DNA of 26,264 nt from a virus. Positions 2,494 to 17,160 of this stretch are shown one piece after another (position 1 is the stretch's first letter; each line of letters begins with the position of its first letter). The stretch is from IMG/VR virus record IMGVR_UViG_3300024320_001004, positions 1 to 26,264 of that record, one strand, 5' to 3'. A program made the position numbers and the translations under genes. The notes beneath the pieces were generated by a model. It made no database searches and was not told the origin of the DNA. It saw nothing but the letters and a program-made list of their open reading frames with translations.

Positions 2494-2958
2494 TCATATG
2501 CGGCACTCCGGGGCAAAGGGGATCTCATCGTCCAGGTCTCCACTCGGCCGGGCGCCACCGCCTGAATAGCCACCCCCCTGGCCGCCGCCCCCGCCGGCGC
2601 CATCCCGGCGGCCGTCAAGCATGGTCAGTTCACCGCGGTAGGGTCGGAGCGCGATCTCCGTCGTGTACCGGTCCTGCCCGCTTTGATCTTGCCATTTGCG
2701 GGTTTCAAGCTGCCCCTCGATGTAGACCTTTGAGCCTTTGCTCAAATACTGCTCCGCCAACCGGATGAGCGCATCGTTGTGGATCGTCACGGAGTGCCAT
2801 TCGGTGCGCTCTTTGCGCTCTCCTGTGTTCTTATCTTTCCAAGTCTGAGAGGTCGCGATGCGCAGATTGCAAATCTGGCCGCCGTTGTCGAAGGAACGGA
2901 CCTCGGGATCGCGGCCGAGATTTCCAATAATGATGACCTTGTTGACGCTGCCGGCCAT
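2494..2958 (-). CDS. ssb: Single-stranded DNA-binding protein
   Basis: Binds single-stranded DNA during phage replication and RecT-mediated annealing. The N-terminal OB fold is clear: [17 protein letters not shown], then [40 protein letters not shown], then YTTEIALR. A Gly-rich linker follows (about 115-140) and then the acidic tip DDEIPF. Unusually the tip is not terminal: six residues, APECRI, follow it. Total length 154 aa is close to normal. The ATG overlaps the TAA of the LexA-like gene by one base (TAATG), so it is coupled to it. Confidence 0.95.
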
Positions 2959-3191
2959 TATAATTGCTCCGTTTTGCCTTGCGGCATTTTCAAGATTTGG
3001 ATTGCGCGACTGCGGTGCGGAAGTCGGCGGATGTAGCCGCGCTCTTCCAACGCCTTAACCAGCCGATAGACGTTAGATTTTGAGGCAAGCTCGAGCGCTT
3101 CGGCGATCTCCCCAAAGGAAGGCGAATACCCAGTGCGCTTGGTATAGGCGGCGAGAAACACAAGGGCTTCGTGCTGGCGGGGTGTCAGCAT
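2958..3191 (-). CDS. Stand-alone LexA-type winged-helix DNA-binding protein
   Basis: A 77-aa protein that matches the DNA-binding domain of LexA over nearly its whole length: [41 protein letters not shown] and [11 protein letters not shown] correspond to the three helices and the wing. The self-cleaving S24 peptidase domain of LexA is absent, so it cannot be inactivated by RecA-stimulated autocleavage. ATG at 3191 is chosen because it begins exactly at the LexA domain and overlaps the previous stop by 7 bases; starting further upstream adds unrelated residues. It lies between recT and ssb. Possible roles are local regulation of the operon or occupation of host SOS boxes (both inference). Confidence 0.88.
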
Positions 3192-6260: not shown

Positions 6261-6422
6261 TCAGTTAAGGCCGAGGCCGTGACCGATCAGGAGAATGAGG
6301 TAGCCAGTCCCGAAAATCGAAATTGCGCCAATACAGTCCTCGATGATCAGGCGAACTGCGCGCCAATTGATGCGGGGGACTTTGATCGCGTACTTTGTGA
6401 TTTTGGATTGTTTTAGAAACAT
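6261..6422 (-). CDS. Small phage membrane protein, first gene of the leftward operon
   Basis: A 53-aa protein: a basic N-terminal half (MFLKQSKITKYAIKVPRINW) followed by a single hydrophobic segment (CIGAISIFGTG then YLILLIGHGL, about residues 30-50), predicted to span the inner membrane with the basic part in the cytoplasm. ATG at 6422 follows an AAGGGGGG stretch at a suitable distance. It lies about 47 bases downstream of the inferred start of the leftward promoter and so would be the first protein made, a position where lambdoid phages carry small host-takeover or exclusion proteins. Function unknown. Confidence 0.7.
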   Translation of the reverse strand: MFLKQSKITKYAIKVPRINWRAVRLIIEDCIGAISIFGTGYLILLIGHGLGLN

Positions 6423-6450
6423 GTGTTCCCCCCTTGTTCTAGGGAAACAT

Positions 6451-6471
6451 TAATCCACACATTGTGGATTA
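6451..6471. promoter_or_regulatory. Operator site, left cluster, promoter-distal
   Basis: A perfect palindrome with 9-bp arms TAATCCACA and TGTGGATTA around CAT. This is the best copy of the half-site AATCCACA that recurs five times around the repressor/Cro pair. It lies just downstream of the inferred leftward -10 box, over the expected transcription start. Confidence 0.8.
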
Positions 6472-6475
6472 CGCA

Positions 6476-6504
6476 ATCATAAATTCACAAAGTGTGGATT
6501 TTAA
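6476..6504 (-). promoter_or_regulatory. Probable leftward early promoter (pL-like)
   Basis: On the minus strand, -35 TTAAAA (6504-6499) and -10 TATGAT (6481-6476) are separated by exactly 17 bp. The spacer is filled by an operator palindrome, and a second operator covers the predicted start near 6469. The promoter would drive the whole operon from the small membrane protein to the integrase. Confidence 0.65.
6482..6500. promoter_or_regulatory. Operator site, left cluster, in promoter spacer
   Basis: Arms AATTCACA and TGTGGATT around AAG, one mismatch from a perfect palindrome. Its centre is 30 bp from the neighbouring operator. It occupies the spacer of the leftward promoter, so a bound repressor would exclude RNA polymerase. 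Confidence 0.75.
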
Positions 6505-6550
6505 TTTTTCAGGCTAGACAATTTATGCAGCATGTTGCTAATTCGTTCTC

Positions 6551-6742
6551 ATGGGGCAATCAGCACATCAAGCCGAAGTAGATCGTCGCCTCGACCGCAT
6601 GATCGAGGTGGCAGAACAACTTAATGTCCCTCTTGACCACGTGGTCGAGCACATGGGCTGGTGCTCTCAGAGTGACTTCCGCAGGCTTTCCGGCAACCCG
6701 TCGCTTCTCCCGCGATACACGAAATCCAATGTAACGCCATAG
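6551..6742 (+). CDS. Possible small protein convergent with the repressor
   Basis: A 63-aa frame (MGQSAHQAEVDRRLDRMIEVA..., then LNVPLDHVVEHMGW) with a plausible amphipathic helical composition and sensible codon use, overlapping the repressor 3' end by 76 bases on the opposite strand. It has no clear ribosome site and no promoter I can see. It occupies the place between repressor and left operators where lambda carries rex genes. It could equally be non-coding. Confidence 0.35.
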   Translation: MGQSAHQAEVDRRLDRMIEVAEQLNVPLDHVVEHMGWCSQSDFRRLSGNPSLLPRYTKSNVTP

Positions 6743-6924
6743 CGATCACACAGGTCCATGGCGCGCTCTACTGGAATTCGGCGGTTACCTTTTTCCCAGT
6801 TGTTATATTGAGTTATGTTAAAGCGGTTCTTTTCAGCCCAAGCTTTTTGGCTGTCGTCTGAAAAAGCCTGCCGTATGCGCTCGAGGCGCACGCCGATCTC
6901 ATAAAATTCTGGACGTTCATTCAT
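6667..6924 (-). CDS. XRE-family phage repressor (CI-like, no peptidase domain)
   Basis: An 85-aa Cro/CI-type helix-turn-helix protein, likely the prophage maintenance repressor. The HTH runs over residues about 12-65: IRQAFSDDSQKAWAEKNRFN (helices 1-2), ITQYNNWEKGNRRIP (recognition helix and turn), ERAMDLCDRYGVTLDFVYRG (helices 4-5). The ending YRGRSDGLPESLRKSL is typical of short alphaproteobacterial XRE regulators. There is no C-terminal LexA/CI-type autoproteolytic domain, so induction must work by another route than RecA-stimulated cleavage of this protein. ATG at 6924 lies 8 bp from the nearest operator, which suggests autoregulation. It is divergent from the Cro-like gene. Confidence 0.9.
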   Translation of the reverse strand: MNERPEFYEIGVRLERIRQAFSDDSQKAWAEKNRFNITQYNNWEKGNRRIPVERAMDLCDRYGVTLDFVYRGRSDGLPESLRKSL

Positions 6925-6932
6925 GGCCCACT

Positions 6933-6951
6933 AATCCACCGAATGTGAATT
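6933..6951. promoter_or_regulatory. Operator site, right cluster, repressor-proximal
   Basis: Arms AATCCACC and TGTGAATT around GAA, two mismatches to the palindromic consensus. It lies 8 bp upstream of the repressor start codon, so it probably controls the repressor's own transcription. Confidence 0.7.
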
Positions 6952-6954
6952 TCT

Positions 6955-6983
6955 TTGCAATCTACAAATCGTGGTATTGTGAT
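6955..6983 (+). promoter_or_regulatory. Probable rightward early promoter (pR-like)
   Basis: -35 TTGCAA (6955-6960) and -10 TGTGAT (6978-6983) are 17 bp apart, each 4 of 6 to consensus. One operator lies in the spacer and another immediately downstream of the -10, the same arrangement as at the leftward promoter. It would transcribe the Cro-like gene, with a leader of about 20 bases, and the rightward early operon. Confidence 0.55.
6959..6977. promoter_or_regulatory. Operator site, right cluster, middle
   Basis: A weaker copy: left arm AATCTACA, spacer AAT, right arm CGTGGTAT. Its centre is 26 bp from the repressor-proximal site and 25 bp from the Cro-proximal site, and it falls in the spacer of the rightward promoter. 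Confidence 0.55.
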
Positions 6984-7002
6984 TATCCACTTTTTGTGGA
7001 AA
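6984..7002. promoter_or_regulatory. Operator site, right cluster, Cro-proximal
   Basis: TATCCACT and TGTGGAAA around TTT; the inner TCCAC/GTGGA core is palindromic. It begins directly after the inferred -10 box and covers the expected start of the rightward transcript. Confidence 0.65.
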
Positions 7003-7010
7003 ATGGGACC

Positions 7011-7268
7011 ATGAACAGAGCAAAACACATTGCTACACAGCTTGGGCAAAGGCGCATCGCTACGATCTTGGGCGTTGGGGCGTCTGCAGTCAACAACGCG
7101 GTGGTACGAGGCAAGTTCCCAGCTGCATGGTTCCCCGTCATCCGCCAAATCTGCGAGACGAAAGGGATTAACTGCCCCGAGTGCGCGTTTAATTTTCGAG
7201 CGCAGAGCAATGATCATTCAGAATACCTCCCTCCTCGAGAGTTTTTGCGTACCGGGAAGCCGTCCTAA
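7011..7268 (+). CDS. Cro-like antirepressor / early regulator
   Basis: An 85-aa protein: MNRAKHIATQLGQRRIATIL, then GVGASAVNNAVVRGKFPAAW, then FPVIRQICETKGINCPECAF. The HTH (about residues 12-40) with 'ASAVNNAVVRG.FPA.W' is characteristic of small Cro-like proteins in alphaproteobacterial prophages. It is divergent from the repressor and first in the rightward operon, the lambda cro position. ATG at 7011 is chosen because the Cro-like domain begins there and the upstream bases hold operators and a promoter. Its TAA overlaps the next start (TAATG). Confidence 0.88.
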   Translation: MNRAKHIATQLGQRRIATILGVGASAVNNAVVRGKFPAAWFPVIRQICETKGINCPECAFNFRAQSNDHSEYLPPREFLRTGKPS

Positions 7269-15237: not shown

Positions 15238-15576
15238 GTTTTTCGACACCCCAGATCTCAGCGGACGTGATGGGTCCGTTTGTCGATGTTCTATGCAAGC
15301 ACGCAAAGTCTATTAAGTCATTTTAGCGAGAGAAAAAACAGGGGGTGCCAGTAATCACTCTTAGGAAGGGAAGCTTCGGTCTGCAATCAAACGCCCGCAG
15401 CACCGGAGAGTCTATCGTACCTTCAATGCATTCCCGGAAGTTTGCTAACACACGCAAAGAGGTATGTTGCTCGCTCCTTTATTCCCAAGAGTACAAAAAG
15501 TGTGGTTATATCACAAATTTTTGATATCAATAGGATACAGAATCTTAAAGCTATTGATGAAGAAATGCTTGTAAAT
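15238..15576. other. Gap between methyltransferase and repeat-protein gene
   Basis: No supported gene. The 3' part (from about 15480) turns sharply AT-rich, with GTGTGGTTATATCAC and a TTGATATCAA palindrome near 15526, and probably holds the promoter of the next gene. An in-frame extension of the next gene back to 15442 runs through this DNA but would hide the signal peptide. Confidence 0.4.
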
Positions 15577-17160
15577 ATGAATAAGTTAATCGCTTTAATG
15601 ATCACGCTCATTGCGAGTGTTATGCCTGCTTGCGCTGACATCAATGCTGATGCCAACCGCTTATTCGTTGAAGCAATGCAAGCGTGGAAACAATCAGAGC
15701 AACTGACGAGTGACAGCTTAGAGCAGGCTCAAGAACGGGTCGATTTGTTGTCGTTAGTTGATAAGAATTTAAACCTCATCGTTGTAGAGCATCCCAGTAG
15801 TAATCTTGCCGTACAACTTCTGATTGGGCCTGTTGGTCCACTCAATCTAGATGCCCTGCCTAAACAGATTGCAGAAGCTGAAAGGCCGCTCTTGGTGTCC
15901 CGCGGAAATGAACAACTAAAGGTGGCTAAAGCGCGTCTTGCAAACGGCGATATTGGCAACGCTCGCGTGGCATTGGTGAAAGCTGCTATTTTGACGGCTC
16001 AACAGATTGAAGATGCTGGTGACCGTTCTTTCCCATTAATTACTATTGTTAGGGCACAAGCTGAGGCTGGTGATGTGTCTGGCGCTTTAATCACGGCTCA
16101 ACAGATTGAAGAGGCTTCTTATTATTTTTGGGCGTTAGTTTCCATTGCTGAAGCGCAAGCTCAGGCTGGAGATGTGTATGCGGCTTTAAGAACGGCTCAA
16201 CAAATTGGAAATGTTGGCGATATACCTCTGGGGCTAGCTGTCATTGCTAATGCGCAGTCGGAGGCCGGTGATGCGTCTGGTGCTCGCGAGACGATTGCGC
16301 TGGCATTACAGGCTGCTCAACAGATTGAAGATGCTGATGACCGGTCTTTGGCGCTGGCATCCATCGCTGATGCGCAATCTAAGGCCGGAGATGTGCCTGC
16401 TGCTTTAAGCACGGCCCTAAAGATTGAAGATGCTGATGACCGCTTTCGGACGTGGGCTGCCATTGCCAAAGTGCAAGCTGAGGCTGGTGATGTGCGTGAC
16501 GCTTTGATCACAGCTGAACAAATTGAGGGGTACGATAAGCGTTCTCGGGCTTTAGCAGTTATTGCTGGGTTGCAAGAGAATGCTGGAGACGTGCCAGGTT
16601 CACGTGAGACGATTGCGCTGGCATTGCAGGCTGCTCAAAAGATTCGGGTGGCTCATTATCGTTCTGATGCAATGATTTCCATTGCCAATGCGCAGTCGGA
16701 GGCCGGTGATGCGCCTGGTGCGCGTGAGACGATTGCGCTGGCATTACAGGCGGCTCAACAGGTTGAAGATGCTTTCTGGGGCTCTCAAGCGATGATAGAC
16801 ATTGCTGAGGCTCAGGCTCGGGCTGGTGATGTGTCCGGCGCGTCAATCACGGTTCAACGGATTGAAGATGTTGGTTTCAAAGTTTGGAGTTCTCAGGCGA
16901 TGAGTGCCATTGCTAGGGCTCAAGCTCAGACTGATGATGTGCCTGGCGCTTTTATTACGTTTCAACGGATTGAAAATGCTGATGACCGTTTTCGGACGCT
17001 GGCATCCATTTCTAACGCACAATTTGAGGCCGGTGATGCGTCTGGTGCTCGCGAGACGATTGCGCTGGCACTACAGGCTGCTCAACAAATTGAAGATGCT
17101 GATGACCGGTCTTTGGCGCTGGCATCCATTGCTCGTATTATAGTCACAGAGCCTTACTGA
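15577..17160 (+). CDS. Exported TPR-like repeat protein (cargo gene)
   Basis: A 527-aa protein with signal peptide MNKLIALMITLIASVMPACA, probably cut after ACA (the C also makes a poor lipobox). After a helical domain of about 120 residues come ten full units of 33-40 aa plus a partial one, with consensus QIEDADDRSLALASIA-AQ-EAGD--GA--TA. Each unit gives two antiparallel helices, so the protein should be a periplasmic alpha-solenoid binding other proteins. Two unit sizes occur: 33 aa, and 40 aa with the insert ETIALALQAAQ. ATG at 15577 is chosen because it opens the signal peptide; 45 codons upstream are open but implausible. More AT-rich than the flanking phage genes and unlinked to them, hence probably acquired. 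Function unknown. Confidence 0.8.
   Translation: MNKLIALMITLIASVMPACADINADANRLFVEAMQAWKQSEQLTSDSLEQAQERVDLLSLVDKNLNLIVVEHPSSNLAVQLLIGPVGPLNLDALPKQIAEAERPLLVSRGNEQLKVAKARLANGDIGNARVALVKAAILTAQQIEDAGDRSFPLITIVRAQAEAGDVSGALITAQQIEEASYYFWALVSIAEAQAQAGDVYAALRTAQQIGNVGDIPLGLAVIANAQSEAGDASGARETIALALQAAQQIEDADDRSLALASIADAQSKAGDVPAALSTALKIEDADDRFRTWAAIAKVQAEAGDVRDALITAEQIEGYDKRSRALAVIAGLQENAGDVPGSRETIALALQAAQKIRVAHYRSDAMISIANAQSEAGDAPGARETIALALQAAQQVEDAFWGSQAMIDIAEAQARAGDVSGASITVQRIEDVGFKVWSSQAMSAIARAQAQTDDVPGAFITFQRIENADDRFRTLASISNAQFEAGDASGARETIALALQAAQQIEDADDRSLALASIARIIVTEPY
16003..17127 (+). repeat. Tandem coding repeats of the TPR-like protein
   Basis: About ten 99-120-base units. The segments 16261-16368 and 17026-17133 agree at 105 of 108 bases and lie exactly 765 bases (255 codons) apart. 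Related copies occur around 16583 and 16690. Such high DNA identity between distant units indicates recent unit duplication or conversion. Confidence 0.85.

Follow-up and report, generated by a model that had tools for sequence, protein, structure and literature searches.

An immunity region with a convergent gene

A virus contig of 26,264 bases (record IMGVR_UViG_3300024320_001004, referred to in its full length as the window) contains a region in which the genes of a small repressor and a Cro-like protein are flanked by two operator clusters, the left (OL) and right (OR) operators, at the leftward and rightward early promoters (PL and PR), and in which a third short gene, here named conv, runs towards the repressor gene and overlaps its 3' end. 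An initial annotation, made from the letters of the sequence and a list of its open reading frames (ORFs) alone, had described the operators, the promoters and the repressor/Cro pair; both conv and the LexA-type boxes considered below were absent from its account of the region. The genes and operators occupy the following positions (strand in brackets; no strand is assigned to operators):

6551 to 6742 (+): conv, 63 amino acids (aa), a candidate SOS-controlled antirepressor; its stop codon lies 76 nt inside the repressor 3' end
6667 to 6924 (-): repressor, 85 aa, a single-domain helix-turn-helix (HTH) protein with HTH domain matches only
7011 to 7268 (+): Cro-like protein, 85 aa, with a weak Cro match
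6452 to 6470: OL outer operator, filling the -35/-10 spacer of the conserved leftward promoter
6482 to 6500: OL inner operator, upstream of the leftward -35; in most relatives its two halves are TCCAC and TTCAC
6933 to 6951: OR inner operator (INN), within the predicted repressor promoter and 8 nt away from the ATG of the repressor
6959 to 6977: OR middle operator (MID), between two back-to-back -35 regions
6984 to 7002: OR outer operator (OUT), filling the spacer of the conserved rightward promoter; the cro ATG follows 8 nt further on

The genes of the window run in the order integrase, leftward genes (among them a single-stranded DNA-binding protein and RecT), immunity region, a replication-O-like protein and packaging genes of the lambda type (GpA terminase, lambda portal, capsid E). 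The region is best explained as the part that governs immunity in a temperate phage of Rhodobacteraceae-type bacteria. Relatives (L plus a number) were collected by searches with the repressor and with an alignment of repressors, which yielded about 20 viral loci in phages and prophages with repressors 51–100% identical to that of the window, including a Thalassobacter stenotrophicus prophage (L007/L012) with an identical repressor protein and EBPR podovirus 2 (L009) with one 60% identical. T. stenotrophicus CECT 5294, the host of the prophage closest to the window, was used as the host genome.

The convergent gene

The conv stop codon lies at exactly the same depth, 76 nt within the repressor gene, in 20 of 20 viral loci. 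Of 397 host-family genomes, 10 carry conv; these are also the ten with the best repressor matches, and in every one of them conv and the repressor gene overlap. In most of the close loci this overlap is again 76 nt, and all measured overlaps leave a remainder of 1 on division by 3, so that the relative frame is the same throughout. Outside the overlap, nonsynonymous and synonymous differences (pN/pS) were 0.014/0.517 between the window and L012 and 0/0.564 between L009 and L020, and the averaged pN/pS was lowest in the conv frame (0.32, as against 0.48–2.8 in the five other frames). Given this low pN/pS in its own frame, conv is a genuine protein gene under strong purifying selection.

The overlap could also be read at the level of RNA, with SOS-induced transcription of conv interfering with or silencing the convergent repressor gene and the protein being secondary. 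Such a reading is in keeping with a tail-to-tail arrangement fixed to the nucleotide in 20 viral loci and with the fact that a conv transcript must enter the repressor gene unless it is terminated, but the strong conservation of Conv amino acids outside the overlap shows that the protein is needed, and we consider silencing by RNA an improbable main function.

No sequence relationship of conv to a known antirepressor or a DinI fusion was found in Pfam, PHROG and NCBIfam. When conv was compared with the repressor segment of helices 4-5, a weak profile similarity was seen (hhalign E = 0.0017 for one comparison, probability 15%, shuffle p = 0.01); it may reflect a resemblance and is too weak to rely on. 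The inner OL operator was considered as an activator site for the conv promoter and rejected, the distance being 51 bp in near relatives and 93–328 bp in others.

In one locus (L071, G468 contig 32) a TAA codon interrupts conv while the repressor is intact; this is perhaps a prophage that has lost SOS inducibility. Matches resembling conv at remote repressors (L074-L090) are less secure, as the overlap is longer there and the repressor itself spans much of conv. Bradyrhizobium-type prophages (L010, L011, L037, L042-L049) have distant small repressors, and there too a convergent gene overlaps the repressor end; these genes were not accepted as conv, since they belong to another family (with a conserved helical N-terminus and, in L037, a DUF4118 membrane part) and have almost no LexA boxes.

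LexA boxes and the link to the SOS response

GTTC-N7-GTTC is the established LexA motif of Caulobacter (PMC12700426), and in the T. stenotrophicus CECT 5294 genome the same box lies before recA, with two boxes before lexA. The relevant elements of the window are:

6515 to 6543 (+): predicted conv promoter, TAGACA-17-CTAATT, recognisable in the window, L012, L013, L014 and L029
6534 to 6548 (no strand): LexA-type box with one mismatch, GTTGCTAATTCGTTC, over the -10 of the conv promoter; perfect in L014
6425 to 6439 (no strand): perfect LexA-type box, GTTCCCCCCTTGTTC, over the leftward start; kept in L012, L013 and L014 with varied N7

The perfect box lies just downstream of the predicted PL -10. 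Across the relatives, 12 of 19 loci have perfect boxes no more than 200 bp from conv. Between -150 and +600 of the repressor stop there were 20 perfect boxes, compared with 10 elsewhere in a fivefold amount of sequence (p = 6e-10), and the region from +60 to +320 in 21 loci held 15 boxes where 0.15 would be expected from composition, an excess of about 100-fold. Control of conv and PL by the SOS response through these predicted LexA boxes is thus well supported by sequence.

Several observations weigh against this control and against the part that we propose for Conv. No box was recognisable within 200 bp upstream of conv in 6 of the 19 loci (L009, L015, L017, L019, L023, L028). Boxes with at most one mismatch occur over the whole window at chance frequency (20 found, 20.5 expected) and the box proximal to conv is itself mismatched, so that the case rests on the relatives. 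The four boxes at the PL start, the perfect box of the window among them, include the likely ribosome-binding site of the next ORF; they all come from one sub-clade and are not independent, and a weak terminator-like hairpin overlaps at this place. As for the protein, conv had no family match in Pfam, PHROG and NCBIfam, its fold model was poor (predicted local distance difference test, pLDDT, 64), a fold search gave no relative (best E = 3.7), and binding of Conv to the repressor is putative.

A second LexA-related feature lies in the leftward gene cluster:

2958 to 3191 (-): 77-aa protein consisting of the LexA DNA-binding domain only ('mini-LexA'; PF01726, E = 2.8e-17)

This protein is 50% identical to the corresponding domain of the host LexA and is encoded, besides the window, in the records of L012, L013, L014, L023 and L050. 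Among the 18 viral records compared, it was present in the four with a box at the PL start and in L023 (Fisher p = 0.0016, the records being related). Mini-LexA could repress or activate at the same boxes, whether those of the phage or those of the host.

Operators and early promoters

All five palindromic sites that the initial annotation had placed in two groups are present, with centre-to-centre spacings of 30 bp in the OL pair and 26 and 25 bp in the OR trio. The pattern AATCCACAN3TGTGGATT, with up to 3 mismatches, matched 3 sites in the window (0.04 expected; 0 of 100 shuffles reached three), and each of the remaining two operators agrees at 12 of the 16 half-site positions. When a position matrix was trained on relatives alone, leaving out the window, L012 and L013, exactly these five operators took ranks 1–5 (26.9, 25.6, 22.1, 21.6 and 16.2 bits); rank 6 scored 12.7 bits, and simulated sequence gave a mean maximum of 11.3 and a highest score of 19.4 bits. 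The weakest site (6959–6977) scores within this simulated range and is therefore convincing mainly through its conserved position in the relatives.

Three OR and two OL sites recur in about 20 phages and prophages, so the lambda-like order proposed earlier, with two clusters around a repressor/Cro pair, is a conserved design. In most relatives the three sites upstream of the repressor are 25 and 26 bp apart and the two downstream 30 or 31 bp; the OL pair was detected in 14 of 18 non-redundant loci at the threshold used, and the inner OR site was not recognisable in L018 and L028 and was degenerate in L017. The half-sites also differ in a fixed manner: both halves read TCCAC in OUT and OL-outer, which are symmetrical, and mostly TTCAC in INN; OL-inner combines one TCCAC with one TTCAC, and one side of MID is ACCAC or GCCAC. 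These differences suggest that, as in lambda, repressor and Cro bind the sites with graded affinities. Operators of this sequence accompany repressors with an NNW recognition segment; they disappear in L074-L096, in which the segment differs. A search of the T. stenotrophicus genome for a host regulon of the operator motif gave no sign of one (13 core matches with at most one mismatch, 4 of them in the prophage; control 5). A possible sixth operator was noticed downstream of cro in L009, L015, L017, L026 and L028, about 294–356 bp upstream of the start of the repressor match; nothing scores at the equivalent place in the window.

The conserved leftward promoter comprises:

6471 to 6476 (-): -35, TTGCGT, its TTG invariant in 14 of 14 OL loci
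6447 to 6452 (-): -10, TAATGT, after an 18-bp spacer

The TTG, located in the 11-bp OL linker, is the sole invariant element outside the sites in these 14 loci. It is followed after 17–18 bp by TAnnnT, with the outer OL site as the spacer and the inner one upstream of the -35. The initial annotation had instead placed PL at TTAAAA-17-TATGAT, the only consensus-scoring promoter in a scan of the window; despite its best score it was set aside, as it is conserved only in the nearest relatives. For PR, the earlier proposal (TTGCAA-17-TGTGAT) overlaps a conserved version, TTGnnn-18-TATAGT-like, with OUT in the spacer, whose TTG (16–17 of 18 OR loci) overlaps the end of MID and whose -10 follows 18 bp on. 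This conserved -10 is poor in the sub-clade of the window (AAATGG in the window), which leaves the choice between the two ambiguous. The earlier PL and PR could still serve in this single window; they are simply not the conserved promoters.

On the opposite strand an invariant TTGC at the other edge of MID is likely the repressor -35, and the centre of MID lies about 44–45 bp upstream of the predicted starts of both repressor and cro. In 16 of 18 loci, 8 nt separate the repressor ATG from INN; in most, the cro ATG comes 8–10 nt after OUT. Since there is no room for an ordinary leader between the predicted -10 boxes and these ATGs, both messages are probably leaderless.

The small repressor, cooperativity and looping

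The repressor is, as first described, an 85-aa protein without a peptidase domain: it gave HTH domain matches only, and its confident AlphaFold2 model (pLDDT 90.6) forms one helical domain. The closest structures found with Foldseek were C.BclI, C.Esp1396I, ImmR, SinR, P22 c2 and P2 C, every E-value being above 0.02. The Cro-like protein had weak matches to Cro (E = 0.00094) and carph-isopro (E = 0.0011), both below the cut-off, and has [NS]N in its likely recognition segment.

From the small size of the repressor it had been concluded that cooperativity would need another mechanism. There is no such paradox: C proteins of this size, e.g., C.Esp1396I, form highly cooperative switches without a separate domain (PMC3115060), and the missing C-terminal domain is therefore no obstacle. 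With regard to looping, the OL–OR distance varies between 531 and 804 bp among the relatives. Helical phasing, considered as a sign of looping, was rejected: the first 14 loci occupied less than half of the circle, but L069 and L072 (about 569 and 603 bp) broke the pattern, so that no fixed phase is left. With neither distance nor phase kept, looping between OL and OR finds no support here.

These results bear on a plain lambda-type switch, in which repressor cooperativity or OL–OR looping would suffice, no SOS link would exist and the LexA boxes would be incidental. The fixed spacing of the two OL sites (30–31 bp) and the fact that both clusters are always kept fit such a switch, but it would leave the roughly 100-fold excess of LexA boxes near conv and PL unaccounted for and finds no help in the OL–OR distance; we give it little credence.

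Other features of the window

Several neighbouring ORFs may be mentioned:

6261 to 6422 (-): 53-aa hydrophobic ORF directly after the leftward promoter, without a family match; similar short ORFs occupy the same place in L005 and L006
13912 to 15237 (+): fusion of a ParB_N-like domain and an N6/N4 DNA methylase, with replication genes on one side and packaging genes on the other
15442 to 17160 (+): 572-aa protein with many near-identical repeats of about 30 residues, AAQQIEDADDRSLALASIADAQSEAGD; the sole match, UBR4-like, was weak and below the cut-off

Proposed mechanism of induction

We hold with moderate confidence that the 85-aa non-cleavable repressor keeps lysogeny and that DNA damage derepresses conv, whose product inactivates the repressor. 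The single-domain repressor and the Cro-like protein would compete for the five 19-bp operators. Repressor bound at OUT and OL-outer, in the -35/-10 spacers, would switch off the rightward and leftward early promoters; INN, in the repressor's own promoter, would mediate autorepression, and repressor at MID could activate this promoter in the manner of lambda CI at OR2. Lacking a self-cleaving domain, the repressor would delegate induction: host LexA would repress conv through the GTTC-N7-GTTC boxes, and in the sub-clade of the window also the leftward promoter. Upon DNA damage LexA would be removed, conv would be made and the Conv protein would inactivate the repressor; the conv transcript would also extend antisense into the repressor gene.

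Alternatively, conv could be SOS-controlled and encode an accessory product (an exclusion factor, a cell-cycle inhibitor or a toxin-like peptide), the repressor being inactivated by other means. Small SOS-induced effectors exist, conv has no family assignment, and it sits between OL and the repressor, the position of rex in lambda. This possibility is nevertheless unlikely in our judgement, given that conv was never found apart from this repressor family and that an overlap of fixed phase points to a functional partnership. The obligate linkage, together with the weak profile similarity to helices 4-5, would also agree with Conv being a positive partner of the small repressor, as co-repressor or dimerisation partner, instead of its antagonist; DNA damage would then, through SOS control, lead to the production of a co-repressor, contrary to what would be of use, and this role seems to us very improbable.

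A more elaborate form of the antagonist role, rather unlikely as a whole, would have Conv mimic the dimerisation segment of repressor helices 4-5 (RMIEIADELDVPLDHVV compared with RAMDLCDRYGVTLDFVY) and poison the repressor through inactive mixed dimers, with the gene locked to that of the repressor by the obligate antisense overlap and, in the sub-clade, mini-LexA taking over the SOS boxes as a further layer of control that is not cleavable.

Many alphaproteobacterial phages have short repressors without a self-cleaving domain, and their induction by DNA damage is unexplained; a study of Sulfitobacter phages says so explicitly for its two phages (PMC7305329). A conserved conv gene with LexA boxes would provide one specific and easily testable answer, from a gene undescribed in the databases searched. 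The region would also be an uncommon instance in which the two strands of one DNA segment encode a regulator and its presumed antagonist, with a fixed overlap. An SOS-linked overlapping partner gene is, in our view, a more interesting result than the operator layout itself.

Comparison with known systems

As in phage lambda, two operator clusters at divergent early promoters flank the repressor and cro, with early recombination genes to the left and replication genes to the right; the position of the middle OR site would let it act on both divergent promoters. The three OR sites are separated by 6- and 7-bp linkers, the same lengths as in lambda OR. Unlike lambda CI, the 85-aa repressor has no C-terminal peptidase/oligomerisation domain; the sites are 19 bp long, the two OL sites are 30 bp apart, and a convergent gene takes the place of rex. 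Judged by this layout, the lambda analogy appears to hold as a working principle and not as membership, as the CI-type repressor domain is absent.

C.Esp1396I, C.Csp231I and C.BclI resemble the repressor in being small single-domain HTH proteins and are among its best fold matches, whereas these restriction-modification C proteins are not phage repressors and have no Cro partner and no OL/OR pair at early promoters. The mini-LexA, a LexA DNA-binding domain only, has a precedent in gp6 of phage GIL01, a truncated LexA homologue (PMC6182141); GIL01, however, uses host LexA as its repressor (PMC6182141), while the window encodes a dedicated one.

The closest parallels for conv are the small LexA-controlled antirepressors of non-cleaved repressors, i.e., GfoA/GftA of the Gifsy prophages, Tum of coliphage 186 and AntC of N15 (PMC3121763). 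There, as proposed here, the repressor is not cleaved and a small phage gene under direct LexA control (predicted in our case) serves as the inducer. In contrast to these, conv lies within the immunity region and shares its 3' end with that of the repressor gene in a tail-to-tail overlap; no relative of its sequence could be recognised, and its antirepressor activity is putative. Taken by analogy, conv fits the role of a LexA-controlled antirepressor, and no other known role fits it better.
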